This document shows positions 33,393-57,457 of a DNA stretch of 64,000 bases, in pieces; within the stretch, counting starts at the first letter, position 1, and each line of letters opens with the position of its first letter. A program made the translations under genes and the position numbers. Below the pieces are notes generated by a model. It made no database searches and was not told the DNA's origin. It was given only the letters and a program-made list of their open reading frames with translations. This DNA comes from Ianthella basta. Taxonomy: Eukaryota > Porifera > Demospongiae > Verongiida > Ianthellidae. The stretch is taken from positions 5,743,371 to 5,807,370 of the forward strand of contig OZ025868.1 of NCBI GenBank assembly GCA_964019415.1, in the 5' to 3' direction.

Positions 33393-35526
33393 TCATTCCA
33401 TCCACTGCAGCACAATTAAGTAGCAGAGAAGAGCCAGTCCCTACAAAATGTGACAAAATGAGTGCTTGTGTAAAGTATGTAGCGATCAGTGCACCCTTGT
33501 GGGTGTGTTTGTAAGGATATTTATAGTGCACTTGTGTGAATTCGTGTGTGTAAAATGAAGATGGTTTAACAAAATGAGCATGCTTGTGCTTATGCATGTA
33601 CATGTAGCTACACTCGCGGCATAAGCATGAGTATCTGAATTGGGCAGCAGCCCCGTGATCTTAGCTAGATATGTGGAAGTTCTAAAGTATGGAGGGAGAG
33701 TGCTTCAATTACAACCTGTAGTTCAATACAAACAAACTCACCATGAAAGTTACTGCAACAATGGACGATACTCCCACTTCTGGATTCATGACAATCATGT
33801 TTGAGAGAATTCCACAAGTGGTGCAAAATGACATAGTCACTACTATCACCTAAAAATGGAGTCAAGGACAGTCACACAGTTGCACAAGGGATTGAGTATA
33901 ACTAGTATACCTGAATGTCAAACTGGTATATACACAACAAATCCCACTTGCTAGAACTAGCACTGTAGCACAAAGATCAAGGTCTTAGGATACAACTACT
34001 GAACAGATGAGGGTAAGTCCTTGACGTCTCTCTCCTCTGCACCACAGGAGGAATCTGACAGCCAGTGCAGTTGTGAGGACCGCAGACAGAAGTGCCTGTA
34101 CCACAGCAATAGCAATCACTGTTTTGCTAAAAACAACAATGACTTCTGTGAGCAGGAACGAATACAACTTGCAGCTACAAGAAACAAGTGAGAGAATTGA
34201 CGAGAAGTTAGAACAGCCAAATGGATAGATTTCAAATTTATGCACTGTGCAAGATAGTTTGTCACATAACAATGGCCCAACACCTACAAAAGCATACGGC
34301 ATCAAAGAAGCATTCTAGCTTAGCTAGCGTGCTTCACAGTTGGGCAAGTTGCAATTTGTTGCTGCATCCTGCTTCAACTTGCGTGTGTAACGTCTCCTTT
34401 GCCATCGATTAAGTACAAAGTAGAAGGCCGCGGGTGACCTAAACTATAAAGCGGAATGCATCTTTTTGCGAGAGAGAAAGTGGCTTGATGGCGACAGGAT
34501 GGGCTCATGTTATCTGGGCTTTACGATTTCATATTGAATCGATAACATCTCTTCTTGCAACGTTTTGCACCCTTAGCTATCGCTGCAGTGCGAATATGCT
34601 GAATGTTCAGAGAAACACCAGGCTATCCAAGAAATTAAGACATTCAGGGACGATGAGAGCTCTCGGGAGCTGGCCGTCAACAACTTTCAGCAGTCAAAGA
34701 CCAACACTCAACCAATGATCATCGATAGTAAATCGTTGACATGATTTAGTACGTTAACAAATCGTGGTCACAATACAGTAAACAATAAGCTCGATATTGT
34801 AAATCATCAGCACAATATAGTAAATCGTGGCAGTTCAACACCGGTTCTTATTTCCATGTGTTTTAGTACAAACAGTGCCCCATAATAATGCCATGTGCTG
34901 CACTGTATGTGATTGTGCCCTGCTACTATGTTCCCCACCATATGTGAATGTGGCAGTCAGTTGTGGCAGTGGTGGACTTGCAAGAAAGCCCGCCTTTGGC
35001 AGGCTTTCTTGGAAGCGTACCATTGAATGTGAATGGGCCCTACTGCCATGTGACACACTGTACGTGAATGTGACAGACAATTGTGGCAGTGGTGCACTTG
35101 CATTTGCAAAAAAGCCCGCCTTTGATGGGCTTTCTTGCTCCATCACATCACAAGTCAGTGATTCTAATGCATGCATTCAATGCTGAATACAGCAGTGCAA
35201 AATGTGCAAGTGCAAAGTGCCATGATGGAGTTGCTTTGTCACTGAGGAACCACAGCTTTGTGCTGTTTTGCAACCACCACAGTGGCATGGCACATAGTGC
35301 AACTTGCACTGTGTGGTGGTGGTGGAGGTGGTGGTGGCTGCACGTGGTGGTCAGTGTTATGTTTGACTTGAGTGATTGGCATTGCTGCAATTTCCACTGT
35401 GTGCAATAGCTACCCATGGTTTTGCTGTCTTCTCACAGTAGTCACTCACAGTCGTTTGGAATCTGTGTCGCATCACTTAATACTGACACCAGCACACACC
35501 ACACCATACATTCTGCACCATCATGT

Positions 35527-35576
<50 letters not shown>

Positions 35577-37686
35577 GCAGTACCACTCAAGTGGACAGTC
35601 AGAACATTATGTACATCAACACATTTGTCAGAAAATTGTTCGACGTTTTGGTAAGGGCAGTTGTGTCTTAAGGACTGCCCTGGCTAACCTGGCAACTGAA
35701 GCCCTCACCATCCAACATTTGTAATGTAGTTATTAGACTATCTACAAAAGTCCTCCATCATCACCAATATTGCTTCCCCAACTACTTACTGAACTACAGA
35801 CTATTCATGGAGAAGTGGCTGGAATGTAGCTTGAGTTCAGGAGCACCCTGGTGCAGCACTAGTTTTAATTCAAACTACCTGTTTAACTTGAAATACTTGT
35901 TAAGGCAGGAACAAAATGTTACCTGTAATTTTGAGGCTTTATAGTAAATTGGTGTATGAAAAGCATACGGTTTATGTAAGGGGAAACATGATGTCACAAA
36001 CCTAGCCGTCTTGTGATAAGGTTAATATTTACTCACTCAGAAATGACTTAAGAAAGCTAGAGACATACTGAGAAGCTAACAAAACAAAGCAAGAACAAAA
36101 AATGTGTGACTTGTACTACTTTCAGCAGGAAATGTCGTTCATACATCACCATATACATGATACATGACAGCTAAACACCAGAATACCAACAAGGCCCATT
36201 GTTACTTACCCTCCAGTTGAATAAGGAATATCTTGAGTGATAACCGGGATACTGCTTAGACAGAGGATTGCAAGAGCAAGCATAATTGAAATGATGCTCA
36301 TGAGCGCCATGGTCTGTAGCACAACAGAATACATTATACATGTAAAGTTTATGCTCAATCATGACTGTAACTCAGACTAAACACAGCTCCATTACACACC
36401 ATATAAGTACTTACTGTGAACAAGCAACAGGCACATTTTCCCCACTGGAAACAGCACTGGCATGGGTTTGTTCTACCAAGAGTCCCAGTTGCTGAACTCA
36501 TCTCATGGACTAGGAGCGAGTCGGTCTCAGACCCTGTATGAGTTTCATTCAGGTACACTCTACTGCTGGTGACATCAAACGTAGCAGAGCTCTCTAGCTG
36601 GGACTCTAGCTGTAGATGTTCCAGGTGTTGCTCTAGTCTTTGGAAATTTTCAGAAAATCTAGAGATATCAGTTTGCAGGCTTTGGTTCTCAGTATTCACT
36701 TTGGCAATCTCTACCTCCTTCTTCTGTACTGCCCTCTGCATGCGCCACAAGGCTAGCTGGATGTTGCTTATTTCTGTCTCTGGTCCTATATCAGCTTCCA
36801 AGACGGTCGCCTCGACCTTCTTCATTTCAGCCAAAAGCATTGCACTGCTTGGACGCATACTGCCTTCATTCTCCAGGCAGAGTTGAGTTATCCCCCCAAA
36901 GGCTTTCAATTCTTCTTTTGAAAACTGCTCAAAATGATGCTCACGTAGCTGAAACTCTGACACAGACTCAGCCGGTGTTTCTCGTTCCTGCATCAGCTGA
37001 GGTGTGGGCCACTGGTGGGTGATAACAGTTATGATCACATTGCCATATGCAAACACGTCCAGCTTATCATCATAACGTGGGGGATAGCGAAGTGCCTCTG
37101 GAGCGACAAACCCCGGTGTGCCCTTGATGGAGGAGCTACGTGTGAGTGAGGCTGCATCGATGGCCCTGGTCATACCGAAGTCGGTCAGCTTGGTCAGGTA
37201 GGTCACCTCGTTGACGAGGATGTTGTTGGGACTGAGGTCGTGATGCACCAACTTGGGGGAGTGGCTGTGAAGGTACACCAGACCCTGGGCCGCCTGACGG
37301 AGAATCACCACCTTGTTGATGAGTGGAAAATCTTCCTTTGGCGTCGTCTCGAGTAGCAATCGAAGACTGGCGTCCATCTTCTCCAGCACCATGACAGGAG
37401 TGTGGGAAGGGTCGAAGTAGATTCCCAGAAACTGGACAATCTGAGGGTGTCTCAAAGCAGACCACGTGGCGCACTCTTTCTCAAACGCTGCGATGAACGC
37501 TTGCTTCTCCTCCGCTGACAGTATCTCCTTGAAGATGTCGTGCATGAACTTCGCCGCGCAGACCGTTCCGTTCCATTCTACTTCAAAGACAGTCCCAAAT
37601 GCGCCCGCTCCGAGCATCTGGCCCGTCTTTCTAACGTCATAAATCTTCAAAGGCGCGATAGGCTCAGCAATTGCAACAGAAACCAT
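33393..37686 (-). CDS. K7: type-b kinase with C-terminal four-pass membrane domain
   Basis: Exons: E1 36415-37686, E2 36210-36313, E3 33994-34174, E4 33742-33849, E5 33393-33440 (TGA); 570 codons plus stop. ATG at 37686 (MVSVAIAEPIAPLKIYDV); the longer frame would need a TTG start. The kinase has LGAGAFG, HHDLSPNN and DFG. The coiled coil (about residues 305-370) is followed by ETDSLL and CQCCFQWGKCACC. Helix 1 is MSIISIMLALAILCL; E3 supplies helix 2 (IAIAVVQALLSAVLTTALAV) and RGERRQG; E4 supplies helix 3 with Cys residues; the protein ends LCYLIVLQWME. The intron 3 donor is GTATCCTAAG with TCCTTGAC 12 nt from the acceptor, a U12-like pair. Only 147 bp separate its stop from the K6 start. Confidence 0.85.
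35528..35575. repeat. (CA)24 microsatellite
   Basis: Pure CA repeat of 48 bp, orthologous position to the 182-bp repeat at 5747-5928, in intron 2 of K7. Confidence 0.97.
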
Positions 37687-38362
37687 CTTGCAGTTTAGCA
37701 AAGGAAAACGTGCCCTAATATAATTATTATTATGACAGATAGCTTGTGTTCGTATATAAATTTATATCATTCGCTATTATAAGTTTGTACACGCAGCTAC
37801 GTGTAATAAATGTAGAATTATTTGCTATATTATAGGCATATTATGGTCACATCTGTCCATCTATAGCTAGTTACGTTAATCTGGAGCTTGTAAGGTCTGG
37901 AGCTAGCTGTAGGAGGCTAATCTCCAGCGCTATGCAGAGGGTCTGTATATCTGCATGTGTTCATGTAATAGATATACACCTCAGCACCGTGATATAATTA
38001 TCTATTACTCATGTACATGCATGGTGGCACATCTGCAGCACTATAGCAGGCATTCACATGACATGTACCAACAATGCTAGTCCCTACTTCTGGCCCCCGA
38101 TTGCACATGGGCAGGGAGGGTGTGAAATTGACAATAGCTGCTAGACCTTCCCTTCCCTGCACATGCGCAATTGTGGGCCGGAAGTAGGGGCTAGCGCGCC
38201 AGACTACAACAATGCTGGCACCTGACACGTGCCAGTTATGCTGAAATGGCAAAATAAGTGTTTGGTATACATAGTGACTATGAGGATTTCAAAGATAAGT
38301 GGTGCTATTACTAGTACACAGCTAGAACAGTTTGCTTAAACTCCATCCTGTAGCAGGCAAAT

Positions 38363-41300
38363 CTACCTCCTCCACTGCAACATGGTAAAGTAGGCGAACA
38401 CAGCCAGACCCTGCATGTATGGAAGAGAAGGGGTCTTGTAGCAATACAGCAGAGAGTAGAACTGTGCTTCATGACTTTCCACACACACAGTGCATGCCCC
38501 TGGACTCACTTGTCTGCAGTGTGCTAAATACATGAACTACCATTTTGAACTGAATGCATGGGAAATGATACCACTATTATGAAGTTACACGGTACCTATA
38601 CGTACAATGCTTTAGTAACTAATAAATATTGTGTGTACCTGGCAGTTGTAACCCCATGTCAGTGCAGCTCTACATGGCACGGCATGATACAGTGGTTTCA
38701 CAATTTCTAATCCCAATTGACATTTGCACATTGCACTCGATCACGTGAGTGAAGTATTGGAAGCATAGGCTCACATGGGATAAGCACGTGCTTCGATCTA
38801 CGTGTGAGCCTATCGTTCCAATACTTTACTCACGTGATCAAGTGCAATGCGCAAATGCCATTCGGGATCAATTGCAAGGAAGGGAACAGGAAGATATGGC
38901 TCAGACAAGCAAGAAAAGTATTAGGAGACAAGCAAGGGACTTTTCAGTGAAAGGACTAACTACCCAGTGAATGCTTAGAAAACGTTTAGGGTCTTCACTG
39001 CTGCCAACCGTCCGCAGCCATCCTATGCACGTAGCCTCAGCTCACGTATGTATTGTTAAAGTACACAAGCAAAATGGCAGATCACAAGAAATGCCAATGA
39101 AGATGGTAATTTCTCGGCAAACCAACCGCATCGATGGAATCCAGGTCCACAGACTGGACCAAATGACGATCTGCCAATGTTGTCTCAGGCGTGGGGTTGC
39201 ATAGTGCTCTAGATCGACAGCGCGAGCGGCAAATGTCAAACATTCTGTCAGACAACAGACTGAAGCAATCACTTAACCCCCCGGCGCTGTCGTGCATGGG
39301 GTAATTACTGAAAAAGGAAAAGTGTATTAATTAGTACTAGCTATTGCATCATCAACAGTGCAATGCATGGAACTCACCATGGCTGCTGCTGAAAAAGTGG
39401 GAAGACCAGGACATGGCTGAAAGAGAGCAACCATTCCATAGAAAGTGAAGTGCCCCCCTACAAAAAGTATAATCTTACTGCTAAGAAATTTTCAAAAGTT
39501 CACAGATAACAGATGAGTTTTGATCACTTTTGTACATAGCCACCCAAGCACTTACATAAAGCAGCCAGTCTCCTCCGGAACAAAATAGAATGGGTAATAC
39601 ATGTTACAAGTATACAATGCAATACAGCTATGCACAATTACCCATGAATTCCCACAAGTGACCACACCAGAGAGACTTGCTTCAGATCAGGGCATTAGAA
39701 TATTTATGCAGTAATACATAGATGTCTATCACATTCAGTCCATGTTCATGTAGTTTGGCAAAGGCAAAGGATACGAATGGTGAACAGACGACAACAAGTG
39801 CTCTATCTCTCACCCTCCTGCACCAGAGGATGGATTGGAGGATGAGGAGGAAAGTGAGAAGTAAGGAAGAGCCAGCTTGAGATGGTATAAACCAAGTGGT
39901 CCATAATGGGAACCTGCAATACCAGAGTAGGTTAGGCTTAATGTAGTAAAGACTACATGGGACAACAAGTGCAGTTCACAATGTTACATGTACATGCAGT
40001 AACTGAATACCATAGCTGCATAATTATATAATTCACCCAAATGCTAAAGGCAGAACCATTTTATATAAAACAGAATAGCTACATAAAAATGTTATGCTTG
40101 AAGGAGTGACACATAGTATGCATGCATGGAATTTAATTAACTGTAACTAGTACGTACTTTGAAATACACAAGTAATGTATCAATGTAGGAGTGTAAATTA
40201 TTGTTAGCCAGTCAGCACAATTTATAGATGGCTACATTCTGAAATAGTTCTGGAAGTCGGCAATATGTATGACAACCAACCATGCTATATATTTTTACTT
40301 ACGGTCTAGCAAGGCAATCTTCTGTAAACAACTGACTAGCACTGCATGAACATGTCAATGTCAGGTCCACAGGTACTGACAGTTCTGCAACAGCTAGTCC
40401 TCCGAGTAGAACAGAAATGACACTTGACAGCACTACTACCTGCAGTACAACAATAGACAAGTGTGGTGAGAGTGTTGCGTCTAGCTATAGTGATGAAACA
40501 TGTGCATAATCAGACGTCACGCTTGTGATGTCTATTTAGAAACGTGCCAGATAAATATGGGATATCCTGTCTTCATGTACTAGCGCGCTTCGCCGAAAGT
40601 AGCCAAATGGCAGCAGCGAAGAACAATTGAAGGACATGGATAGGTTTCTTTCAATGTATTAAAGACAGCAGTGCAGCCAAAGCTAGCCTGGAATGCATGT
40701 AAGAGAAGAGCGCCACCGGCTGCCCATGCTCCATTTCTTCTTTTCATAAATTACTGTTCTCATTGAATTTTTGCGCGCTCCTAGCACCTGACACAGGGCA
40801 ACTACGGACCCAAATCATGTACAAGGAAACCTGTATGGACGTGAAGGGCAAATATCCGAGCGCTGGTGGCAATCAGGTATAAGTACAGCGCTGGAGCAAG
40901 TAGGAAATTTGTCTTCCCCATGTATAAAGATACCCCGGTGCCGCTATTACATTCTAGTAACAGTCCGGTAACACGACAAATGGTTCTTCTAGAGTGGCAT
41001 ACCTGTGCTCGATGTTCTGCACAGTCTTCATCTAATTTAAGGATTTAAGGGTATTGATCAGCACAAGTATTAATCTGATGTATATAGTCATAGTCTTTTG
41101 GATATGCAAACAGTACAAACTAGTGAATAAAAATTTATTTAGAAGTAAAAGAGATATAGGGATGGCCAGCAGAAAAAGCATAGAAACAAGAAACAGTAAC
41201 TCAACACCATGATAAACCACATTTCTGTGAAGTTTGCTCTACATTCCAAATTTCCTTGTATAGCTACTAAAGATTAGCTAGCTAGACATTTGGGGCCATG

Positions 41301-43098
41301 CAGCTACAAGGAAATTAGGAATGTAGAGCGAACTTCACCACAGAAATGTGGTTTATCATGATGTGCTCTTTGACCAGAAGGCAGCTAAGCAAAGAACATG
41401 CCCGCCCAGTCCATCAACTGGAACGGAGCATCTCGAGCCGATTCTCTGCAAGGCACCAATTTTATATGACTGAACAAACTGACATACAAACCGAGACCCG
41501 GTGCATTATAGTAATATTATCGAATGTTTTGCAGAGCAACCAATGCAGAAATGAGTATTCTTTCCCGATCAATTCCATTCAATTTTGCACATACTACTTG
41601 TCTTCGGTATGGTACAGGTTAACCCTGGGCCAATTTATAGCACCTTCCAATGTATGATCAAAATTAACCATTAAAGGTAAAAAATGCATGTGCAACAACT
41701 CCTTGATTGAGGAGTAGCTTCCCCCAATGTAGTACAGAAGAATAAATCACGCATGCAGTAAGGCATGCGGAGTGTGCAGTACACTGGGCAGTGTAGAGCG
41801 CAATGCTGCAATGTTTGACTTACCGTGAACAAGGCACACACACATTTCCCCTGTCTGAAACACCATTGACAAGGCCCCCTCATGCCTGGAAGCTCATCGG
41901 GCTCAAGCTGTGTTGAAGTGATGCTGGGTTCATTGGCTGTGGGAGCTGTCATTACATGCAAGCTGCTATCAAACATGGGCAAATCAGGAACAGTCCTCCC
42001 CTGTAGACGGAGCCTCAGTTCAACATTCTCAATACGCTCCCTGAGATTCTTAACCTTCTGATCTGCTACAGAGCTCTGACTTACTAGCTGAGCATTCACC
42101 CTGTTCACCCGCACTGCCTCACCGTCTCTATTCTCCAAGTCCTTCTGCATACGCCACATTGCAAGCTGCACATTGCTGTCCTGCTCTTGTGCAGAATAAC
42201 TCTTCAGCACAGTTTTCTCCATTTGCTTCATTTGAGGCAGAAGCATATTACTTGTTGGGCGTTGGTCTGCGTTATCATTTAAGCACAACTTGACCATGCC
42301 CTGGAATAGCTTCTTTTCACCTTCTGAAAATAGCTCTAAATAGGGTGCACGTGTATCCAATTGAGAGTACACCACTGCGTCCTGCATCTCCTCTCCTTCA
42401 GTTCTAGATGGCCTTGGAATGACTGGAGTGGGCCACTCATGTGTGATTGTCATAATGATGAGGTTGCCGTAGGAGAACACATCAAGTTTGTCATCGTATT
42501 GTGGTGGGTAGTGCAATGCTTCAGGAGGCATGAACCCCGGTGTGCCCTTGATGGAGGAGCTACGAGTGAGTGAGGCTGCATCGATGGCCCTGGTCATACC
42601 AAAGTCGGTCAGCTTGGTCAGGTAGGTCACCTCGTTGACGAGGATGTTGTTGGGACTGAGGTCGTGATGCACCAACTTGGGAGAGTGGCTGTGAAGGTAC
42701 ACCAGACCCTGGGCCACCTGACGGAGGATCACCACCTTGTTGATGAGGGGGAAATCTTCCTTTGGTGTTGACTCGAGTAGCGAGCGCAGACTGGCGTCCA
42801 TCTTCTCCAGCACCATGACAGGGGTGTGGGATGGGTCGAAGTAGATCCCCAGAAACTGGACAATCTGAGGATGTCTCAAAGCAGACCACGTGGCGCACTC
42901 TTTCTCAAAGGCTGCGATGAAGGCTTGCTTCTCCTCCGCTGATAGTATCTCCTTGAAGATGTCGTGCATGAACTTCGCAGCGCAGGTCGTTCCGTTCCAT
43001 TCCACTTCGAATACGATCCCAAATGCACCCGATCCAAGCTTTCGATCCCTTCTCCTAACGTCGTAGATCTTCAACGGAGATAACTCAATTTCTACCAT
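38363..43098 (-). CDS. K8: type-a kinase with C-terminal four-pass membrane domain
   Basis: Exons: E1 41824-43098, E2 40303-40439, E3 39775-39913, E4 39378-39473, E5 38363-38410 (TAG); 564 codons plus stop. Sister of K3: the starts are identical (MVEIELSPLKIYDVRRRDRK) and introns align. The kinase has GSGAFG, CAAKF, HHDLSPNN and DFG; then a coiled coil, CQWCFRQGKCVC, and four predicted helices ending LQWRR. E2 is 15 bp shorter and E3 9 bp longer than in K3, both in frame, so the extracellular side has changed while the frame was kept. Intron 3 has the U12 donor GTATCCTTTG but the same weak branch region as K3. Confidence 0.85.
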
Positions 43099-43844
43099 GT
43101 TTAAAGCTACTACATGCGGTCTTCACGTGCTGTAAGGTTTACATTATTATATTGCGAGAACGCTCATTTTCTTATATAAATTCGTGCATCCTTACACACT
43201 GTTAACGTTTGTCCTTAGCTATAGTACACAATCTACACGTACGTATACAGCAGTTAAGAAGAACACGGATGAATAGTATTACTCCATCCACTGCAGCACA
43301 ATCATGTAGCAAATTAGAGCCAGTAACTACAACAGGAGGAAAGATGTACAGCTGCAATGCATAGTGTAGGATAGGATAGTGCAGGACAGTACAGTATAGT
43401 GTACCCTTAGTGCCTGTCAAGCACATTACATTAGAACCATCCGTAATTAGCTAAACCACAATATAATGTGATGTGACATGAACATGTATGGAGTCACAGC
43501 CAATACAATCCACATACGTACTCTCATACGCACTTGTATCTATACATAGTATAACAAGGGTAGCTAATATCAGTCTAAGTGTACTCTTAGTCTGGCTAGC
43601 TAGACCGTCCCTAAGCACCCAAGGCACAGAAGGCGTGAAAGGAAGAGATGGCCTAGTATACAAAACGATTACAGTATTCGTCCGTATAGAGGCCAAGCTC
43701 GAATAGAGGCTGGGTCCCGAATAGTGGCCGGGTTTTGCCACAATCGACATGGAATGCCTCTCGATCAACGCTTTTGTGCTCCTTAGCAACTGCAAGTTGC
43801 TTGTCACACTTCACAGTTGCCAAGGATCATGAGTTGCAAGAGTG

Positions 43845-43975
43845 ATGTCTAAGAGAAAGTCATACAATGTCTCTTTCAAGTTGAAAGCCGTTGAGTGCAC
43901 AGAGAAGACGACCAAGGAGGTGGCTGGCACCATATACACGTGGTGGCCTCTAACAACACTCTCGTTCATGACAAA
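43845..43975 (+). pseudogene. Transposase N-terminal fragment, second copy
   Basis: Same MSKRKSYNVSFKLKAVE start as the fragment at 15549, duplicated with the block. The frame runs into the deletion breakpoint beside the MITE at 44005. Confidence 0.45.
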
Positions 43976-44004
43976 ACCAGGGCTTCTCAGCTGGCTCAGG
44001 CATC

Positions 44005-44184
44005 AGAAAGGGTTGGTTCTCTAATACCAACTTCACAACAGGGTTGAAAACCTTGCCGACGTTTCGACCAGATGCTCTGGTCTTCTTCAGGGCGAAGATT
44101 CTAGATGACCAGAGCATTTGGTCGAAACGTCGGCAAGGTTTTCAACCCTGTTGTGAAGCTGGTATTAGAGAACCAACCCTTTCT
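44005..44184. mobile_element. 180-bp fold-back MITE at a deletion breakpoint
   Basis: AGAAAGGGTTGGTTCTCTAA... and the facing ...TTAGAGAACCAACCCTTTCT are inverted repeats of about 80 bp; each arm contains the GACGTTTCGACCAGATGCTC-type core. It is absent from the other duplication copy, where about 1.8 kb of K4 sequence is present instead. Confidence 0.85.
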
Positions 44185-46161
44185 AACACAACTACTGCAG
44201 CTATTAACAGAGAAATGGAAAGCAGTCAATTGGTAGCAAGATCACTTACAGGTCAGTCTAATGAAAATGCATTTTATTCCCTCTATTCAACCCTACATGC
44301 ATAAACAGTTTGGGATTGAGCAAAAATCCAAGGATGGCAATTAGCACAGCCTCTCCCTTAGCACTCCCTCACCATACTAGAACACATAAAGAGATAAGGG
44401 TCTTCTATATTAGTAGGGCTGTACCATATCATATGTTATGCAAATGGCATAGAAGTTCATTGCAGATAAGATGGCAAAACAAATAATACTTATGTGAAGA
44501 CATTCGACAATGAGGTTTTCGTCAGTTACAAAGTGAAGCGTGAAGGAAAAGATTGGCTTTTTATGCTTCGAGATTACACCATACATTGAAATGTCTTTGA
44601 TGATGTTATATTTATTCAAGACCTGTCAAGTCATAAAGACATATCCATCCACCTTCCACTTACCAATCATTCAGTTGCTACAGGTGCAAGATGTGCGTAA
44701 TTAAGTCAGTGCACACAAGGATCTAGCAGACGTAATAGCGAACACAACACCAAGAAAGACATTGTAAGTGCAGTGGCATCAGCCATATCTGACCGAATCA
44801 TACTCGAGGGTATCACGTCTATAAAGAAATTTGAGAACCTAGCATTGGCAATGCAGTCACTTTTGAAAGCCACATCATATGAGATTCGCCACAATAAGGT
44901 TTCTTCACAGACAGCAGGAGGGCTATTAGGCAGACGAGGTAAACATAACCATACCAGCGCAACTCTCGTCCATCGCATACGGCTTGTGGTGAAATATAGT
45001 GCACTGTACTGCTGGAGTCATCGAGGATAATCGACTCCTCCATCTGTGATTTTAGATGGAGATGTTCCAGGTGCTGTTCGAGCCTTCGTGCATTCTCGTT
45101 ATATCTTGAGATGTTGTATTGTATTGTAGGCTTTGGTTTGCCACATTCACCTCAGCAATCTCCGTCTCCTTCTTCTGTACTGCTCGCTGCATGCGCCACA
45201 TTGCTAGTTGAATGTTGTTTGCTTCCATCCCTGCTGCCACTTCACCTTCCAAGACAGTCACCTCAATTCTCTTCATTTCAGCTAGTAGCATTGCACTGGT
45301 TGGACGATTCATCCCTTTGTTTTCCAAGCAAAGAGTGGTTATTCCTCCAAAAGCTTTAATCTCTTCTTTTGTAAACTGCTCAAAATGGTGCTCATGAAGT
45401 GGAATCTCAGACAATAGTTCAATTGTTGTCTCTTCTTCTCCCAGCTGTGGCATAGCGGGTGTGGGCCACTGATGTGTGATGGTCATAATGATCACATTGC
45501 CGTAGGAGAACACATCGAGCTTGTCATCGTAGTGTGATGGGTGACGCAATGCTTCAGGAGGCATGAACCCCGGTGTGCCCTTGATGGAGGAGCTACGTGT
45601 GAGTGAGGCTGCATCGATGGCCCTGGTCATACCAAAGTCGGTCAGCTTGGTCAGGTAGGTCACCTCGTTGACGAGGATGTTGTTGGGACTGAGGTCGTGA
45701 TGCACCAATTTGGGGGAGTGGCTGTGAAGGTACACCAGACCCTGGGCCACCTGACGGAGGATCACCACCTTGTTGATGAGGGGGAAATCTTCCTTTGGTG
45801 TTGACTCCAGCAGTGAGCGCAGACTGGCGTCCATCTTCTCTAAAACAAGGACAGGAGTGTGGGAGGGGTCGTAGTAGATCCCCAGAAACTGGACAATTTG
45901 AGGGTGTCTCAAAGCAGACCACATGGCGCACTTTGTCTCAAAGGCAGTGGTGAACGCTTGCTTCTCCTCCTCGGATAGTATTACCTTGAATATATCGTGC
46001 ATGAACTTCGCAGCGCAGACCGTTCCGTTCCATTCCCCTTCGAAGACTGCCCCAAATGCACCCGATCCGAGCTTTCGATCAGTTCTCCTGACGTCGTAGA
46101 TCTTCAACTGAGCGGTAGGTTTAGTTACAGTCGCCATGTTTTACAGGCGCCAATACTTGAA

Positions 46162-47629: not shown

Positions 47630-50600
47630 TTACTTCCTCCACTGCAACATGGTGAAATAGGAGAAAACAGCCAGACCCTGCACAGAAGAATAATTATTTT
47701 ACAGTAATGAAACAGTGACTTGAACTACAAAATTAATTCTGATTTTTCTCAAGGCACAATCATATAAACCCACAAGTCTGCAGTGTGCTAAATGTACGTA
47801 TGAACTACGTAGCATTTTGAGTTGATAGCAAGGGATTTTAATACCATCAGTATTGAGGTCATTGTCGGCAAATAATGACATACTTGATACAACCCTTGAA
47901 ATACACATGTGCATCACCGATTGGTACTCCTAAGTCAAGATTGCTTGAAACTCTGTAATGTCTCATCGGCAGCTAGCAACAGGAGAGCCTTTAATTTTTC
48001 GTGACGTATTAGGACCCCCTGAAAAGGTTCTCATAGTCCAAATATTTCAAAATATTCGAACCCCCAATCCCACTTTTCTGGATGTTAGCTCAGAATGGTA
48101 GGCTTTGAGACAAACTACCACTCTTCTACAGAGGTCACTACTCTGACCCTTCCTCTCTGCCTCTGTATTAAAGACTTCTCAATTCTTTATGGCTTGCACT
48201 GGCGCTCTCTTCCAAACTGTTTGCTTACCTCCGAGACCATATTTCAGTGTATTTCCATTCTTATACTCTTATACTAAGGACTTCATTAATGGCAACTTCT
48301 TCCCGATCGTCTTCCCTGTTCTGAACAATTTTTCTCAATCGTTCTTTGCTGACGTTTCTCGCCACCATTTATATGTATATACACAATATAAATTTGGATG
48401 GGGGGAATGCATATTACGGGGTCCACTTTGAACATGACAAGCCACACCATGTATCACACCTACACACATGGAAATCTTAGCACAATTGTATGCATGCATC
48501 AGTTATATGACAGTGCTGAGGAGTACATGTAGCACATGAGACTGTCTAATATCCACATAGATTCCGTTGTCATTGCCACGGGCCTCTTTTCGTGATCTCT
48601 AAATCTCGTAGACACCCCAGCTGTATGTATGTTCACGCCAAGACTTCTATTTCGTCCAGCTGGGCTTTAACTAAGGCGCTTCGTTCGCGCTGAAAATGTT
48701 ATAGGAATTTCATAGCAGAGAGCTGCAGCTGTATATTAAAATAAGCCACAACATACAATGTACAGGTTGCTCAGCTTACTTGTTTTGTCAAGAAACAGTA
48801 TATATAAAGCAACAATCTGGCTCCGAACCAGAGCCGAGAAATGAACTGGTTATGAGCTGGGAGCAGGCTTGGTTAAAGAACATGTACACCACTCTGGGAA
48901 ATGCTGTGGCTGATGTGGCTGACAGTGAGTATACTTACACTTAGCTGACACACCGCATCCACTGCCAACCTGTAAGAAACATCTAGCTGCTTCAAGATGA
49001 CCACCCCAAGTTGAGACCCAAATCAAATGACGTACTACTTCCAGAAGACGTGTGATGATGCAAGTATGAGTAGGTAAACTGATTCACTGCCACTCCTTGA
49101 CCAATTATTGGGATATATAATACATAAATGCTAACCAATCAAAGTCTCTGACGACTTAGACTACTCGGCACTCAGGCGCTTTGCACCCTCGTTCCTCATG
49201 CTCTATAAATCTCAGAGACACCTCTTGGTCAGCACTTAACTATTACATACATGCACTAAAGTGCTGTGGTCTGAATGTTATATACATACTCTGTCGCACA
49301 GGCTTCTATATTGACACTTAGGTGGGATTGCAAGTCTAGTGAATTCAGGATGGCTGGACTAGTGTCTGGCTGCTTCTGTTTGCGCACTGACAATTTCGAT
49401 CATGGATTATTCTTGCCCAGGTTATGCCAATTGTGCAAAATGCAAAGAGAGCTGTTCAGCCCTAAAGAAGAACGTCGAAGTCTTACTCTAGAGAAAGCCA
49501 AGGGAAAGCAGCACCAGACTAGCAATAACACCCAGAGACATGGGTCTAAGTGAAAACAGTGCCAGGTTCTTTACAGATGCCGAAGTACAGAAGCTCCATA
49601 AGAGGGCTATAAACTTGGCAATACTGCAAAAATGAAAAAGTGGGCAGTCAACAATTTCATGGCATGGAAGGCAGCACTTGAGTTGGCACAAGAGGAGAGG
49701 TGTCATGGTGATTGCTACAGCCGACAGCCAAGTATCTTGTGTGTGTGCACATGGCTATCAGTACACACCTTCTATATATGCCTGTGGTAAAACAGGTTTT
49801 AAGAATCCCGTGTGTAGCTTCTTAAATCCTGTTATGTCAGAGAAGAGGCTTTTTGATGAAGTTATACTATGGTCGTGAAATTCAATCACCTGTCGTTGCC
49901 CTGGCAACAGAATATATTCAAAATAATATCATAATGCCACTACATAGCTATTACAAGACAGCAACAATAGTGTAATGCAAGAAACTGACCATGGCCACTG
50001 CTGATAAAGTGGGAAGACCAGAACACGGTTGGAAGGGAGCGCCACTTCCATAGAAAGTGAAATAGGACATTACAAGAAATGCAACCTGACAAATAATATT
50101 AAGGAATCATTGACGACTATTTCACAGATAAATTATGCATAAGCAGCCAGCCACCTTCAAGCAGATTAAAGTACTAGTAATGTGCTACATACCTTATACA
50201 GCACGCAATACAACCAATATGATGCCTAAATACTGATATTATACAGTGGACTGCACACATGACCAGGTATAACTGAATGGCTTGCAAACACAGCATTAGT
50301 ACACAAATGTAAAACATGCTTCATTAACATTATACACTGGTACAGGCAAGGATACGAATGGGGAACAGACAACAGCAAGTGCCTTATCTCTCACTCCTCT
50401 GCACCAGAGGACAGATTGGAGGATGAGTAGGATGGAGAGAACAAATGAAATAGCAAGCTGAGATATTGTACCAACCAATTGGAATTGTCCAGATATATAC
50501 CTGCAATTGATAGCACAGAAGAGAAAGAACTGCTAAAGGCTGAAATATTACGTAAAACATATTAGAAGATACATAAAAGAAACACATGCATAGCACATGG

Positions 50601-52374
50601 CATTTAACTGCAGCAAATTTGAAGTAGCATACATGTGGTGCATAGGAGAATTTCTTGAGATCGAACATATAATACCTGTCAACAACACATACAGGGATTG
50701 CAATTGGATATAAGGCAATTCTGGCAGTTTTCAATATGTATGATTAGCAAACTATATACTATGGACTTACTGCAGTTTGTAGCAAGCACCACTTGAAAAC
50801 ACACTGGGAGTGCATGAACAACCCAAGTTCCACTGGACACATCCAGGAGAGGTACGTTGTGCAATAGCTCCTCCTCCAAGCAGAATTGAGATGACACATG
50901 ACAACATCATTATCTACAATGTAACAGTAGACACGTGTGTAGAGAGTGTTGCATCAAGTGCTGGAGCACGAGAATATAGCAACATTGTAGTCTGTTAATG
51001 CAAATATCCTTCTGCGTGCATCAAACAGCTGTGTATCAAAAACGCAACATGCTGAGCATACAATGCACTGTGTACAAGGAAATGCAGGAATATCTCACTT
51101 ACAGTGAACAGGCTGCATACACATCTCCCATGTATGAAGCACCACTGACAAGGCCTTCGTGGCTCTGGAGTTTCATCAACCACTGTGCTAGATTCTTTGG
51201 CTGATGGAGTTGGCATTTCATGCAAGCTGCTATCGGAGAGGGGTACATTAGGAACACTCTTCCCCTGTAGACGGAGCCTCAGATGAACATTCTCAATCCG
51301 CTCCCTGAGATTCTTAACCTTCTGATCTGCTACAGAGCTCTGACTTGCTAGTTGAGCATTCACCCTGTTCACCCGCACAGCCTCACCGTCTCTATTCTCC
51401 AAGTCTTTCTGCATACGCCACATTGCAAGCTGCACATTGCTGTCCTGCTCTTGTACAGAATAGCTCTTCAGCACAGTTTTCTCAACTCGCTTCATTTGAG
51501 GCAGAAGTGTAGAACTTGTTGGGCGTTTGGCTACATCATCATCTAGGCACAACTTGATCATACTACTGAATAGCCTTTTTTCATCTTCTGAAAATAGCTC
51601 CAAGTAGGGTCCACGTGTCTCCAATTGAGTGCATGTCTCTGCATCACGTGTCTTTCCTCCATCACTTTGAGACGGCTTTGGAGTGACAGGGGTGGGCCAC
51701 TCATGTGTGATTGTCATAATGATGAGGTTGCCATAGGAAAACACATCAAGCTTGTCATCGTAGTGTGGGGGGTAACACAATGCTTCGGGAGGCATGAACC
51801 CCGGTGTGCCCTTGATGGAGGAGCTACGAGTGAGTGAGGCTGCATCGATGGCCCTGGTCATACCAAAGTCGGTCAGCTTGGTCAGGTAGGTCACCTCGTT
51901 GACGAGAATGTTGTTGGGACTGAGGTCGTGATGCACCAACTTGGGGGAGTGGCTGTGAAGGTACACCAGACCCTGGGCCACCTGACGGAGGATCACCATC
52001 TTGTTAATGAGGGGAAAGTCTTCCTTTGGCGTTGACTCAAGCAGTGAGCGCAGACTGGCGTCCATCTTCTCCAGCACCATAACGGGGGTGTGGGAGGGGT
52101 CGAAGTAGATCCCTAGAAACTGTACAATCTGAGGATGTCTCAAAGCAGACCACATGATGCACTCTTTCTCAAACGCTGTGATGAACGCTTGCTTCTCCTC
52201 CGCTGATGGTATCTCCTTGAAGATGTCGTGCATGAACTTCGCAGCGCAGGCCGTTCCGTTCCATTCGACTTCTAACACTGTACCAAATGCGCCTGCGCCG
52301 AGCTTCCGACCAGATCTTCCAATGTCGTAGATCTTCAACGGAGCAAACTGCTCGTCAAGCTTAAAGGAGGCCAT
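47630..52374 (-). CDS. K10: type-a kinase with C-terminal four-pass membrane domain
   Basis: Exons: E1 51103-52374, E2 50771-50913, E3 50356-50500, E4 49990-50085, E5 47630-47677 (TAA); 567 codons plus stop. Start MASFKLDEQFAPLKIYDIGR. Kinase motifs LGAGAFG, CAAKF, HHDLSPNN, DFG, PPE are complete; the coiled coil is the type-a form and CQWCFIHGRCVC precedes helix 1. E2 encodes a Cys-rich loop (PGCVQWNLGCSCTPSVFSSG). E3 holds helix 2 (ISFVLSILLILQSVLW), E4 helix 3, and the end is FSYFTMLQWRK. Intron 3 is only 270 bp and U12-type: GTATCCTTG donor, TTCCTTAAT branch at 50098-50106, 13 nt from the acceptor. A palindromic kappaB-like site lies just upstream. Intron 4 is 2.3 kb and contains a separate coding fossil (49520-49720). 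Confidence 0.87.
49520..49720 (+). pseudogene. Broken coding fragment resembling a WAVNNF/DUF3504-type domain
   Basis: Two overlapping frames read NSARFFTDAEVQKLHKRAIN and, one frame over, KMKKWAVNNFMAWKAALELA. The WAVN.F..W pattern recalls the QRICH1/KCTD1-like domain derived from Crypton-type recombinases. Recognition is by pattern only. The frame shift and lack of flanking coding sequence indicate a fossil in K10 intron 4. Confidence 0.3.
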
Positions 52375-52407: not shown

Positions 52408-52747
52408 TAGAGTAATGCTGTAGCATATATAGTAGTATTATATATACGTAGCTACATCAGCTCTATATGGTTCGCCATAGCTATAGGTAGCTATATAGCA
52501 AATTGGATCTCGAGGTATAGGAATCCTTCGTCGATCGTGCAAATACAGAGCAGATATATAGCTCAGTGCCTCCTCAAGACTGGTTCTTATCGTCAGGTAG
52601 CTATCAGAAATGTTTCATGTTTAGCTAGCTAGCTAGCTAACAAACACGTACCTACATTGAGACATGTAATTATGCATGTCTGATACTATTACCCCTAACT
52701 TAAGCTGATAAAACATCATATTAGATAACTATAATTATATAACTATT

Positions 52748-55700
52748 TTACTTCCTCCACTGCAACATGGTAAAGTAGCAGAATACAGCCAGACCCTACA
52801 CAGAAGAAAATGTACACAGTAGCAATTAAACAGTGAATAGAATTGCACTTTCCGACTTTCCTTGCAGCACATATGAACCCACAAGTCTGCAGTGTATACT
52901 ATAAGTAAGAACTAGCATTTTGAAATGCTTGCATTACCACCATCATTGAGGTCGACTCTTCCCCAATAAAACTAATAATGCATGGTCAGTTTAGTAAAGT
53001 TGACACAATCCATGAAGTACATGCAGAAATACAGAAGATGGAGCATACGAAACCTACATGCATGGAATTCCAAGCACAACGTATGTATCTAATAGCTAAG
53101 TTGGGCAATTAGCGAAGAAAGCTCCTTATAGTGATTTGGAAGGTAACTCATCTCTATAACTACAACTAATACGTAATCCATGTCTATATATATAGGCATG
53201 GCTTATGTAATAGTTATATAGCCTTCACAGTGCGTGACACAATGCATACACAGCACAAGGCCCGAGGGCATTAAGTGGGCTATGACTAATATATCGCCCA
53301 TTGTCATGGCTCCATAAATGCTCTTTCAGCAGAATTAGCTGGGTAGGGTATCAGGTTGGTGACAGTTCCTTCACATTGCAATCTACGCTGCTTGAATGCA
53401 GAGATTTTAGCGAGCGTTCTTGCTCAGATATCCATACAGACTCTCAATTCAAATGAGCCGGCTTCTTGGTATAACACACAGTGCATGATGACAGGCAGAC
53501 CACTTGTAACAGCTTAGTGGAAGGACTTGTTGGCTCTGAAACTGTTGAATATCTTTGTTTTCCACTGAAGCAATAAGATCATTGAGGACTTAATAAGAAG
53601 GTGCACAAAGAAGCTTGTTCATGTAAGCTGCTGGAATGTGCCCATTCTGCCGACCTTGAATGATTGCTAACTCGGGCATAGTTGATCTTCCTCCAAGGTT
53701 AGTTAATATGCCGTACTACAACAATATGGATGTTTGTAATCTAAAGTGTGTAAGGACAATGTCACATGGAATCACTGATGTTTGCATGAACTTTGACCTG
53801 GGTGACATTGCTAATATAGCATGGCAATATCAACTGACTAGCCCTGGGCTCTTATAGGTCATAAGAGAGATGTCAACACAAGGTTGCCATGGCAAATATA
53901 TAGTACAAATATAAGTAAAAGAGCACATCCCCAGCTCCATACACGTGCATACAGCTTTACGGCTTGCGCTGATGCTCTCCATTGAATGCTAGCTTCCGTC
54001 AGTCAGTGTATTTCCATTACTATACTCTGATTAGCTTACTCCAAGATAAAGACTTCTTTAATGGTGACTTCTTCCTGATTGTCTACCCAGTTCTGGAACA
54101 CATTTTCTCAATCATTGTTCACTAATGTTTCTTGCCTCCATTTATATGTATATATGCACTGTAAATTTGGATGGGGGAACCGTTTATTATATATAGAGGT
54201 CCATTTTTTACGTGACAAGCTACACCGTATATATCACTCTTATACACATGGAAATCGTAGCACAATTGTATACATGTATTAGTTATACCACAATGAGGCT
54301 TCTTATTGAAGTTATACCATGGTTGTGGAATTCAATCACCTGCCGTTGACCCCACAAAAGAGCATATTCAAAATAACATTATATGCCACTACATATAGTT
54401 GTTATAAGACAGCTACAATAGTGTTATGCAAGAAACTGACCATGGCCACTGCTGACAAAGTGGGAAGACCAGAACACATCTGGAAGGGAGCACCGACTCC
54501 ATACAAAGTGAAATACGACATTACAAAAAATGCAACCTAACAAATATCGTTAAGGAATCACTGACAACCATTTCACAGATGAACTATGCATAAGCAGCCA
54601 GCCACCTTTAAGCAGATTAAAGTACTAGTAATGTGCTACATGCCCTGTACAGCATGCAATACAACCAATATGATGCCTAATAACTCAAGTTGCACCAATT
54701 ATAGAATTGGCAATCGGTATCAGCTGAAATTGCATGGGTCTCTTAAACTTTAACGGTAATCGGTTGGTCCATTGCTTCCTCATACCGATTAATTTTTGAT
54801 TACGTCACAGCGAGCACGTGATGTTTGCGAGTAAAGTGTTATAGCAAGTGGTTACATTGTTGTGAATCGTTGGTTTGTTCTGGATCTAGCAGCACATGGA
54901 ATCGCCAGGAAGGAAGAAGTCACCAGCGTGGGACTACTTCACCATTGCCGAGGACCCCAACTCTGTAGTGTGCCAGGTCTGCAAAAAGAAGGTACAGTGG
55001 AACCTCGCTGAACGACCAGCTCTATAAAACGACCACCTTAGAAATAAGACCGCTTTGGTTTAGTCCCAAATTCATGTACCCATGTATTTTTGATTGCAGA
55101 ATTAAGACCACCTCGAAAATAAGACCAATTTGCATGGTCCGGATACTGGTCTTATTTCTGAGGTTTCAGTGTATCATGCAGCAGCAAGAATTCCAAGAGC
55201 TATGGGATTACAAATTTGGTGCAGCATTTGAGGGCCACGCATGCTCAACTGCTCAAAGAGTTTCAACAAAAGGGTGAGGCGCAAAATGCAGTGGAAATTA
55301 GTAATTACTGATATTATATAGTCGACCCTGCATAATTAAGGGACCAGGTAAGACTGAATGCATGGTTTCAACCACAGCATTAGTACCCAACTGTAAAACA
55401 TGCTTAATCCATATTATACACTGGTAAATGCAAAGGATACAAATGGTGAACAGAAGACAATAAGTGCCTTATCTCTCACTCCTCTGCACCAGAGGACGGA
55501 TTGGAGGATGAGTAGGATGGAGAGAAAAAATGAAATGGCAAGTTGAGATATTATACCAAACAATTGGAATTGTGCAGCTGTATCCCTGCAATTGATAGCA
55601 CAGAAGAGAAAGAACTACTAAAGGCTGAAATATTACGTAAAACATAGAAGGTACATAAAAGAAACACATGCATAGCACATGGCATTTAACTGCAGCAAAT

Positions 55701-57457
55701 TTGAAGTGCCATGTGGTGCATAGAAAAATTTCTTGTTTTTAAAAGATATATTTGTTGTATATAAATACCTGTCAACAACACATAAGGGGGTTGCTTATAA
55801 GGTCATTCTGGCAGTTTTCAATGTGTATGATAGCAAACTATATACTATTAACTTACTGCAGTTTGTAGCAAGCAGCGCTTGAAAACAACACACTGGGAGT
55901 GCATGAACAATCCGAGGCACATCCAGGAGAGGTAACAGATTGTGCAATAGCTCCTCCTCCAAGCAGAATTGATATGGCACATGACAACATCATTGCCTAC
56001 AGTGTGAAAATAGACAGAGAGTGTTGCATCAAGTGCTGGAACATGAGAGTACGGCAACATTGTTGTCTATTAACGCAAATATTCTTCTGCATGCATCAAA
56101 CAGCTGTGTCTCAAAAGCATAGCTAGCTGAGCATACAATATACTAGACTATGTATAAGGATATGCCACAGTATCTCACTTACAGTGAACAAGTTGCATAC
56201 ACATCTCCCATGTATGAAGCACCACTGACAAGTCCTTCGTGACTCTGGAATTTCATCAACCAGCGAAGTGCTGGATTCATTGACTGCTGGAGTCGACATT
56301 TCATGCAAGCCGCTATCAGAGAGGGGTACACTGGGAACAGTCTTCCCCTGTAGACGGAGCCTCAGATGTATATTCTCAATGCGCTCCCTGAGATTTTTAA
56401 CCTTCTGGTCGGATATAGAGCTCTGACTTACTAGCTGAGCATTCACCCTGTTCACCCGCACAGCCTCACTGTCTCTATTCTCCAAGTCCTTCTGCATACG
56501 CCACATTGCAAGCTGCACATTGCTGTCCTGCTCTTGTACAGAATAGCTCTTCAATACTGCCTTCTCAACTCGCTTCATTTGAGGCAGAAGTGTACTACTT
56601 GTTGGGCGTTTGGCTACATCATCATCTAGGCATAATTTGATCACACTACAGAATAGCCTTTTTTCATCTTCTGAAAATAGCTCCAAGTAAGGTGCACGCG
56701 TCTCCCATTGAGTGCATGTCTCTGCATCACGTGTCTTTTCTCCATCACTCTGAGACGGCTTTGGAGTGACAGGGGTGGGCCACTCATGTGTGATTGCCAT
56801 AATGATGAGGTTGCCGTAGGAGAACACATCAAGCTTGTCATCGTAGTGTGGTGGGTAGCGCAATGCTTCAGGAGGCATGAACCCCGGTGTGCCCTTGATG
56901 GAGGAGCTACGTGTGAGTGAGGCTGCATCGATGGCCCTGGTCATACCGAAGTCGGTCAGCTTGGTCAGGTAGGTCACCTGGTTGACGAGGATGTTGTTGG
57001 GACTGAGGTCGTGATGCACCAACTTGGGGGAGTGGCTGTGAAGGTACACCAGACCCTGGGCCACCTGACGGAGGATCACCACCTTGTTGATGAGAGGAAA
57101 GTCTTCTTTTGGCGTCGTCTCGAGTAGCGATCGCAGACTGGCGTCCATCTTCTCCAGCACCATGACAGGAGTGTGGGAGGGGTCGAAGTAGATTCCCAGA
57201 AATTGGACAATTTGAGGGTGTCTCAAAGCAGACCACATGATGCACTCTTTCTCAAACGCTGTGATGAACGTTTGCATCTCCTCCGCTGATAGTATCTCCT
57301 TGAAGATGTCATGCATGAACTTCGCAGCGCAGGCCGTTCCGTTCCATTCCACTTCTAATACTGTGCCAAATGCGCCTGTTCCGAGCTTCCGACCCGACCT
57401 TCCGATGTCGTAGATCTTCAACGGAGCAAACTGCTCGTCAAGCTTAAGAGAGGCCAT
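52748..57457 (-). CDS. K11: type-a kinase with C-terminal four-pass membrane domain
   Basis: Exons: E1 56183-57457, E2 55857-55996, E3 55441-55585, E4 54441-54536, E5 52748-52795 (TAA); 567 codons plus stop. ATG at 57457 (MASLKLDEQFAPLKIYDIGR); a longer frame upstream lacks an ATG. Tandem sister of K10. The kinase has LGTGAFG, HHDLSPNN, DFG; the coiled coil is followed by CQWCFIHGRCVC. E2 encodes a loop with five Cys (PGCASDCSCTPSVLFSSAAC). Intron 3 is a textbook U12-type intron (GTATCCTTTG donor, TTCCTTAAC branch at 54549-54557, 13 nt from the acceptor). It has been enlarged to 904 bp by a nested transposon insertion. The ATG lies 368 bp from the K12 stop. Confidence 0.87.
54686..55301 (+). 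mobile_element. hAT-like transposon remnant in K11 intron 3
   Basis: Absent from the equivalent K10 intron, where CTAAATACTGATATTATA is continuous. Here TAATAACT (54678-54685) and TAATTACT (55302-55309) flank the insert as an imperfect 8-bp duplication, the size hAT elements make. It carries a BED zinc-finger ORF and a later MITE. Confidence 0.6.
54896..55311 (+). pseudogene. BED-type zinc finger (transposase N-terminus), split by a MITE
   Basis: ATG at 54896 opens SPAWDYFTIAEDPNSVVCQV, the aromatic start and C-x2-C of a BED finger. After the MITE (54995-55171) and its duplicated TA, the same frame continues with GITNLVQHLRATHAQLLKEF, supplying the H...H half, and stops at 55309-55311. BED fingers begin many hAT transposases. 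The catalytic domain is missing. Confidence 0.7.
54995..55171. mobile_element. 177-bp TA-flanked MITE (Tc1/mariner, pogo-like ends)
   Basis: Ends CAGTGGAACCTC and GAGGTTTCAGTG are inverted repeats, flanked on both sides by TA (54993-54994, 55172-55173). The interior has complementary GACCA.../...TGGTC and AAATAAGACC motifs. It interrupts the BED finger ORF. Confidence 0.85.

Follow-up and report, generated by a model that had tools for sequence, protein, structure and literature searches.

The locus considered here raises one question: does a tandem family of kinase genes in the sponge Ianthella basta encode soluble kinases, or kinases that continue into a membrane module? The window is a stretch of 64,000 nucleotides (nt) of contig OZ025868.1 (C1:5743371-5807370, assembly GCA_964019415.1). 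Coordinates are positions within the window unless a contig is named, and the copies of the array are numbered g1, g2 and so on. The genome searched comprises 209 Mb in 96 contigs. A kinase exon and four small downstream exons very probably form one five-exon gene, the splicing of which is predicted from conserved splice signals. It is fairly probable that the products are four-pass receptor-like kinases with diversifying outer loops, for which both the surface location and the function are predictions.

Stop-to-stop frames were the starting point, and the long kinase frames on the minus strand form one family. Exons 2-5 were found by copy-to-copy comparison, followed by per-exon profiles, with which 254 kb in and around the array were scanned. 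When one kinase exon was used to search the whole genome, 99 of 804 candidates were scored. The array accounts for 36 of these, spread across ~240 kb (C1:5.569-5.808 Mb) and all on the minus strand (36/36); one lies on the small contig C79 and 62 lie elsewhere, nearly all on C11. The profile scan found the same five exons in the same order along the array. Since they recur in one order, the five-exon pattern is more than chance. Open five-exon models were obtained for 29/36 copies, 25 by script and g17, g18, g19 and g33 after inspection, and these models encode the order kinase, coiled coil, Cys cluster and four-pass region that the first-pass annotation had described. Its count of seven complete genes in the window also holds: g3, g4, g6, g7, g8, g9 and g10 have coding lengths divisible by three and no internal stops. 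The interval it had given, 33393-57457, holds g3, g4, g6, g7 and a truncated g5, and the other three complete genes lie at 9467-33245. The parts of the seven genes are as follows, with the contents of the exons as predicted.

57457-52748 (-), g3 gene
56183..57457 (-), g3 exon 1, kinase, coiled coil and Cys cluster
55857..55996 (-), g3 exon 2, remainder of segment 1 and first outer loop
55441..55585 (-), g3 exon 3, segment 2, LWCRG loop and beginning of segment 3
54537..55440 (-), g3 intron 3, putative U12-type, GTATCCTTT...TTCCTTAAC...AG
54441..54536 (-), g3 exon 4, remainder of segment 3, second outer loop and beginning of segment 4
52748..52795 (-), g3 exon 5, end of segment 4, LQWRK and stop
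52374-47630 (-), g4 gene
51103..52374 (-), g4 exon 1
50771..50913 (-), g4 exon 2
50356..50500 (-), g4 exon 3
49990..50085 (-), g4 exon 4, putative U12-type intron 3 at 50086-50355
47630..47677 (-), g4 exon 5
43098-38363 (-), g6 gene
41824..43098 (-), g6 exon 1
40303..40439 (-), g6 exon 2, starts VVVLSS, no Met
39775..39913 (-), g6 exon 3, acceptor homologous to g10 and g16; script alternative starts 39952
39378..39473 (-), g6 exon 4, intron 3 with GTATCCTTT donor, weak acceptor AAG and badly placed branch motif
38363..38410 (-), g6 exon 5
37686-33393 (-), g7 gene
36415..37686 (-), g7 exon 1
36210..36313 (-), g7 exon 2, 101 nt past exon 1
33994..34174 (-), g7 exon 3
33742..33849 (-), g7 exon 4, putative U12-type intron 3 at 33850-33993
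33393..33440 (-), g7 exon 5
33245-24335 (-), g8 gene
31971..33245 (-), g8 exon 1, start codon 147 nt beyond the g7 stop
30171..30250 (-), g8 exon 2
26809..26950 (-), g8 exon 3
26271..26363 (-), g8 exon 4, putative U12-type intron 3 at 26364-26808
24335..24391 (-), g8 exon 5
20187-14975 (-), g9 gene
18883..20187 (-), g9 exon 1
18636..18727 (-), g9 exon 2
17348..17528 (-), g9 exon 3
17106..17237 (-), g9 exon 4, putative U12-type intron 3 at 17238-17347
14975..15022 (-), g9 exon 5
14794-9467 (-), g10 gene
13520..14794 (-), g10 exon 1
11995..12146 (-), g10 exon 2, no Met
11478..11607 (-), g10 exon 3
11081..11176 (-), g10 exon 4, intron 3 acceptor weak, as in g6
9467..9514 (-), g10 exon 5

The exons of the seven complete window copies have compatible phases, as first reported. 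The model phases are 0/2/0/0, and these are borne out by a phase-free choice of donors. Since the model-building script demanded the phases while picking splice sites, phase agreement inside the script is no test. The phase-free repeat, which began from the exon starts already modelled, returned the model donor as the best donor for exon 1 in 28/29 models, for exon 2 in 29/29 and for exon 4 in 28/29. The GTATCC at the end of exon 3 was present in 29/29, and the conserved QW of exon 5 was in frame with its acceptor in 29/29. In the 25 scripted models the intron 1 donor is GTAAGT in 23 and GTAAGG in 2 (in the window, GTAAGT in six copies and GTAAGG in g9), the intron 2 donor is GTAAGT in 23 and GTGAGT in 2, the intron 3 donor is GTATCC in 25/25 and the intron 4 donor is GTGAGT in 20/25. 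The least certain splice sites are the exon-3 acceptors. For g6 the acceptor at 39913 was used, which is homologous to that of close paralogues; the script had chosen 39952. A first frame for g6 exon 4, from the TAG before GGGGGCAC, was dropped because of its mismatched phase; the fitting acceptor is the one that aligns with the other copies.

Exon 1 could instead be a soluble kinase gene, with exons 2-5 forming a separate small membrane-protein gene beside it. Unspliced, the exon-1 frame meets a stop 3-74 codons past the donor in the 32 copies that have one. Several exon 2s also open with Met (in g7, ACCATGG) and with a hydrophobic run resembling a signal sequence. The junctions between the exons argue against two genes. 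Intron 1 is just 101-189 nt in 7/25 models (g1, g3, g4, g7, g9, g13, g15), there is no Met in exon 2 of g6, g10, g16 and g19, and the exon-1 donor is GTAAG in 25/25. The best hydrophobic stretch of segment 1 spans the exon 1/2 junction in 20/25 models (not g7, g13, g21, g26, g34). Segment 3 spans the exon 3/4 junction in 25/25 and segment 4 the exon 4/5 junction in 21/25, the other four having no peak above the cut-off there.

The kinase and the module also co-diverge, which is a further point against two genes. Their nearest neighbours belong to the same class (A or B) in 25/25 models, and kinase and module distances are correlated (Mantel r 0.90 overall, 0.76 in the 8 genes of class A and 0.66 in the 17 genes of class B, p at most 0.0004 each). 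An exon-3-like match precedes the next kinase for 35/36 kinase exons; the exception is g5, and the match of g11 is partial. In the 150 nt upstream, a CACGTG box is present for 10/29 exon-1 starts, 1/34 exon 2 and 0/32 exon 3, with a background of 5.3%; therefore there is no sign of a second start. The box at the exon-1 starts is a possible shared promoter element. Two genome-wide module searches (E at most 0.001 and at most 1) found no free-standing module gene and, outside the array, placed the module only on C79 and as one exon-3 remnant on C2. The C79 module has two copies, one with its own kinase and the other cut by the contig end. The remnant (C2:6712066-6712179 (-)) lies far from the array, its donor is altered to GTATTC and the surrounding 4.5 kb contain no other convincing module exon. 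Some points weigh against the one-gene model: exon 2 often begins with Met, the CACGTG box occurs at no more than 10/29 exon-1 starts, and the polyA hexamer test was uninformative (3/35 exon-5 stops, 1/32 exon-1 read-through stops, 9% background). Taken together, two adjacent genes are highly improbable.

Intron 3 differs from the other introns in its donor. The signature of U12-type introns, which are removed by the minor spliceosome, is a 5' site GTATCCTT with a TTCCTTRAC branch site near the acceptor. The GTATCC donor occurs in 29/29 of intron 3 and 0/29 each of introns 1, 2 and 4, with the script seeking GTATCC first at exon-3 ends, and the median match of the intron 3 donor to GTATCCTTT is 9 of 9. 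A phase-free look found GTATCC within 90 nt of the LWC codons in 29/29 models vs 2.6% of 90-nt stretches drawn at random. For ordinary (U2-type) donors near these codons, the top-scoring site coincided with the GTATCC in just 8/29. Intron 3 has a branch match of 7 of 9 or better in 25/29 models, vs 1/29, 7/29 and 3/29 for introns 1, 2 and 4 and 5.4% of random AGs (n=3000). At the stricter level of at least 8 of 9, the counts are 14/29 for intron 3, 0/29 for each of the other introns and 0.5% of random AGs. Nine of the ten occurrences of GTATCCTT in the window are exon-3 ends of the kinase array, with 2.0 expected by chance on both strands. The genome also has a U12 RNA gene (97.4 bits, C15:6980686-6980837) and a U6atac RNA gene (94.5 bits, C12:1821463-1821587). 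The assignment is weakest in g6, g10 and g16, where the acceptor reads AAG and just 7 nt separate its AG from the branch match, in g17, where the best branch match is 23 nt from the AG, and in g25, g28, g34 and g36, where it reaches only 6 of 9. From these signals, intron 3 is with high confidence U12-type. About thirty minor introns in one tandem array seems unusual, and a literature search on U12 introns in sponges found nothing specific.

U12-type introns are removed slowly and are known regulation points. The minor spliceosome would join exon 3 to exon 4, and this step may act as a gate between a four-pass and a truncated form. The main product could then be a cytosolic or two-pass kinase through retained intron 1 or intron 3, with the four-pass form minor or induced; a retained intron 1 ends the frame within the 3-74 codons given above. 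The read-through tails vary widely in length and look unalike except in close relatives, and exons 4 and 5 are conserved, so a main product of this kind is very unlikely. For annotation, the GTATCC donor and the four tiny exons could lead standard gene finders to call a soluble kinase.

PF00069 matched exon 1 in both copies scanned (g7, E 3.5e-33, 115.6 bits; g6, E 6.1e-36, 124.6 bits; cut-off 31.7). The ATP-binding Lys (CAAK) is present in 33/36 copies and was not found in the broken g11, g29 and g31. The motif HHDLxxNN is present in 36/36 and DFG in 35/36, g12 having DIG. The best relatives of solved structure are CTR1 (98.2 bits, 3.9e-27) and TAO2 (70.6 bits), with TAK1 and IRAK4 just below TAO2; CTR1, TAK1 and IRAK4 are of the tyrosine kinase-like (TKL) type and TAO2 of the STE20 group. 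The TKL label given at first is consistent with the similarity to CTR1, TAK1 and IRAK4, and it is a label by similarity and not by tree. The catalytic Asp is preceded by His instead of Arg in 36/36 (HHD), whereas TAO kinases carry HRD. Since HHD stands in place of RD, these are non-RD kinases. Non-RD kinases, which have no Arg before the catalytic Asp, are tied to innate immunity across kingdoms according to PMC8463890.

The coiled coil is suggested by weak matches to Pfam coiled-coil families and by a low-confidence predicted helix at residues 309-365. Exon 1 ends in CxxCFxxG(K/R)CxCxLFT, which is invariant in the seven window copies and varies in some copies outside, e.g. g20 and g22. This Cys cluster may carry lipid or bind zinc. 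An alignment pattern search for relatives of exon 1 in viral contigs gave 40 pattern matches, 0 of them confirmed.

The spliced protein has ~545-591 residues, and its membrane and outer-loop boundaries were set by the author from hydropathy and exon borders. In 25 models, the kinase is followed by three to five hydrophobic peaks and preceded by none of at least 1.4. About four hydrophobic segments per gene had been claimed; the four expected peaks exceed the cut-off in 20/25 models and five models fall short. The module has no named family. Tetraspanin, claudin, MARVEL and MS4A were absent among the 12 Pfam families listed at E of at most 10 for 13 modules, with HMMER filters that drop most weak matches. 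The best Pfam match, Plug_translocon (E 0.0084, 1/13 modules), is not convincing, and a profile of the 13 modules gave a single unrelated match against PDB (E 0.83). An alignment pattern search for relatives of the module in other genome contigs gave 29 pattern matches, 0 confirmed. A four-pass topology with a cytosolic kinase is quite likely.

The ratio of nonsynonymous to synonymous differences (pN/pS) was compared between the parts of the protein. Eight gene pairs (16/25 models), chosen by hand as close relatives, gave a pN/pS of 0.24 for the cytosolic part, 0.43 for the membrane part and 1.36 for the loops (bootstrap 95% 1.02-1.90). The loop value is above 1 in 7/8 pairs and 1.00 in the remaining pair (loops vs cytosol, Fisher p 7e-21). 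When all pairs are pooled, the values are 0.67 in class A and 0.71 in class B for the module, and 0.32 and 0.33 for exon 1. Pooling over seven subgroups, which took in the doubtful g21 and the longer g6 exon-3 model (neither is in the eight pairs), gave 0.20 for the kinase, 0.24 for the coiled coil and 0.52 for the linker in exon 1. The values in the module are 0.41 for the Cys cluster and segment 1, 0.73 for segments 2-3a, 0.51 for segment 3b and 0.36 for segment 4, and in the loops 1.14 for the first loop, with many gaps, and 1.02 for the second. Since the fastest-changing regions are the two predicted non-cytosolic loops, the pattern supports the predicted topology. It suggests selection for loop diversity.

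Several results weigh against a receptor-like reading of the module. Seven of the 36 copies are broken or incomplete (g2, g5, g11, g12, g29, g31, g35), and the open frame of g21 is kept only via a model without hydrophobic segment 2. Since its open frame costs this segment, g21 is doubtful, and it is probably also broken. Three peaks only are found in g8, g10 and g14, and g16 reaches four via an extra first-loop peak, so that with g21 five models fall short. The outer loops, of ~5 to 50 residues, are small for ligand binding. A loop pN/pS near 1 also fits relaxed constraint, which is the chief alternative, and the loop alignments are gapped. The eight pairs were taken as independent without a tree. 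The value for segments 2-3a indicates that segment 2 and its flanks are not strongly constrained, and single subgroups scatter, with segment 4 at 1.13 in g7/g13, one of the seven. An AlphaFold model of exon 1 with the seven window copies failed (mean predicted local distance difference test score 38); in it, helix 309-365 reaches 59-70 only from residue 331 on, and residues 81-120 reach 50-65.

The membrane part could be decaying. The copies would then be recent duplicates with freely drifting loops, and the kinase exon alone would be retained, in part through gene conversion. The broken copies, g21 and the loop ratio near 1 agree with this, and exon 1 shows less synonymous difference than the module (0.256 vs 0.381 in class B), as conversion of the kinase exon would give. 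However, exon 5 (0.35-0.46), segment 4 and the Cys cluster with segment 1 are constrained when pooled, and the 29 complete models have preserved both their splice frames and their U12-type signals. Decay of the membrane part is thus quite unlikely, and a retained four-pass module with diversifying loops is preferred.

Classes A and B mostly alternate along the array, the class labels of the broken g5, g11, g29, g31 and g35 being assigned by the author. From stop to start, the A-to-B gaps (n=14) are 140-1427 nt with a median of 355, six of them at most 241 nt, the B-to-A gaps (n=9) are 506-5021 nt and the B-to-B gaps (n=4) are 177-2382 nt. From this layout, the duplicating unit seems to be an A-B pair. 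Short A-to-B gaps, e.g. 33245-33393 and 14794-14975, look as if the pairs were inherited, and perhaps expressed, together. The remaining copies in the window are incomplete, degenerate or cut by its edges.

62120..63662 (-), g1 exons 2-5 at 63574-63662, 63136-63316, 62892-63041 and 62120-62167; exon 1 crosses the right window edge
57826..61487 (-), g2 degenerate copy, no exon 4 found and exon 1 split over two frames
43279..46113 (-), g5 degenerate copy with a shortened kinase exon; exon 5 the only module exon recognised
6573..7980 (-), g11 degenerate copy, broken kinase exon and exon 2
458..4197 (-), g12, exon 1 with an in-frame stop; exons 2 and 3 present, exons 4 and 5 beyond the left window edge

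The window has a few other features. A 157-residue open frame at 20453-20923 (+) has a weak beta-helix match (E 0.027, below the cut-off), and self-similar sequence at ~21111-22178 adjoins it. There are 91 CA repeats in a run at 5747-5928, and similar repeats lie between exons 3 and 5 of the broken g29 and g31, in which exon 4 was not found. Elsewhere in the genome, a search for SRCR domains scored 150 of 1173 candidates and all 150 matched, with none in 14 control genomes, as would fit an animal such as a sponge; many of these domains are clustered on C2, C6, C8, C16 and C21.

The kinase exon also has relatives outside the array. With one C11 kinase as the query, 131 of 848 candidates were scored; each of the 131 was a match, and most lie on C11. 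At one of these sister loci (L046, C11:2361001-2365900), the kinase-coiled-coil exon is 52% identical to the array kinase over 319 query residues. The next recognised exon is a 305-residue open frame with NHL repeats (PF01436, E 9.5e-25), and the sequence of the first intron fits a phase-0 junction. The search for the four-pass module at this locus returned nothing convincing; the matches were weak and short, the best by profile (E 0.013, 18 nt) lying inside the kinase exon. The gene shares a homologous first exon with the array genes and has an NHL propeller in place of the four-pass module. The NHL exon is known from this locus, the sole one where a downstream domain exon was found. In L045, the other sister locus fetched, the stop of the kinase-coiled-coil frame is closely preceded by GTAAGC, which resembles a donor. 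Since an NHL exon follows the kinase-coiled-coil exon at L046, one such exon appears to be combined with different sensors, and it may be a reusable unit.

In the proposed mechanism, each gene would give one multipass membrane kinase, with an N-terminal cytosolic kinase, a coiled coil, a linker and a four-cysteine cluster at the membrane face, followed by four membrane segments, two outer loops and a short C-tail. The kinase would face the cytosol and the coiled coil would mediate pairing of the proteins. Varied external or luminal partners could contact the two rapidly changing outer loops, and such contact would change the clustering and activity of the kinase. On this view the array would form a repertoire of diversified receptor-like kinases, with immune, microbe or self recognition as its candidate role. 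The odds are about even that the proteins have a receptor-like recognition role with diversifying loops, and a part in immune or self recognition in particular is a tentative suggestion. A large recognition system is similarly speculative: it would combine a reusable kinase-coiled-coil exon with cytosolic NHL sensors and membrane four-pass modules under positive selection in their loops, with head-to-tail A/B pairs perhaps acting together and a minor-spliceosome intron choosing between four-pass and truncated forms. If true, the array would present a receptor-like kinase design with the kinase first, the four-pass module last, ~thirty copies and the fastest change in the outer loops. It would be a candidate diversified recognition system for sponge-type animals. 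It would also show a single kinase exon serving several sensors, and an entire receptor family would depend on the minor spliceosome.

The array proteins could also be endomembrane kinases of the endoplasmic reticulum (ER) that, like TAOK2-alpha, shape or tether membranes and are not surface receptors. No N-terminal signal peptide was seen in the array proteins, in which the kinase starts at most ~20 residues from the start codon, as would suit this alternative. The membrane region of TAOK2-alpha is reportedly one that spans several times, a 2021 result attributed to Nourbakhsh. TAOK2-alpha has the same outline order, with a C-terminal membrane region, and is ER-associated, as PMC9114808 describes. 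However, fast change limited to two outer loops and an expansion to 36 copies are both unexpected for a housekeeping tether. The kinase is also closer to CTR1 (98 bits) than to TAO2 (71 bits), TAK1 and IRAK4 being just below the latter. An ER role is therefore unlikely, and surface receptor-like kinases remain the preferred reading.

How the array kinases relate to known membrane kinases can be seen from three systems. Single-pass receptor kinases, such as animal receptor tyrosine kinases and plant receptor-like kinases, carry a large outer domain, one membrane segment and a C-terminal kinase, in that sequence. The array proteins share with them a membrane-tied kinase with variable outer parts, but run in the opposite order and have just two short loops as outer parts. 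Fusions of G-protein-coupled receptors (GPCR) with kinases bring a TKL-like or tyrosine kinase (TK) domain together with a multipass membrane domain; GPCR-TKL/K fusions occur in choanoflagellates and GPCR-TK in choanoflagellates and sponges, as stated in PMC12716839. These fusions have seven segments and a C-terminal kinase, whereas the array proteins have four predicted segments and an N-terminal kinase.

The closest architectural precedent is TAOK2-alpha, which has the order kinase, coiled coil and membrane region. Its N-terminal kinase and coiled coil are described in PMC12879741, where the extra C-terminal part of TAOK2 is named a leucine-rich repeat domain. The array kinases differ from TAOK2-alpha in their kinase type by score, in HHD, in a much shorter protein, in the Cys cluster at the membrane, in a module of no named family, in dozens of tandem copies and in fast outer loops. 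The first-pass annotation had called the order one that could not be named. The outline of the order does have a precedent in TAOK2-alpha. No description of the full kinase-coiled coil-Cys cluster-four-pass architecture was found in the open-licence literature. Since TAOK2-alpha shares the order and the GPCR-kinase fusions have the reverse order and seven segments, the predicted architecture is a new variant among membrane-bound kinases.

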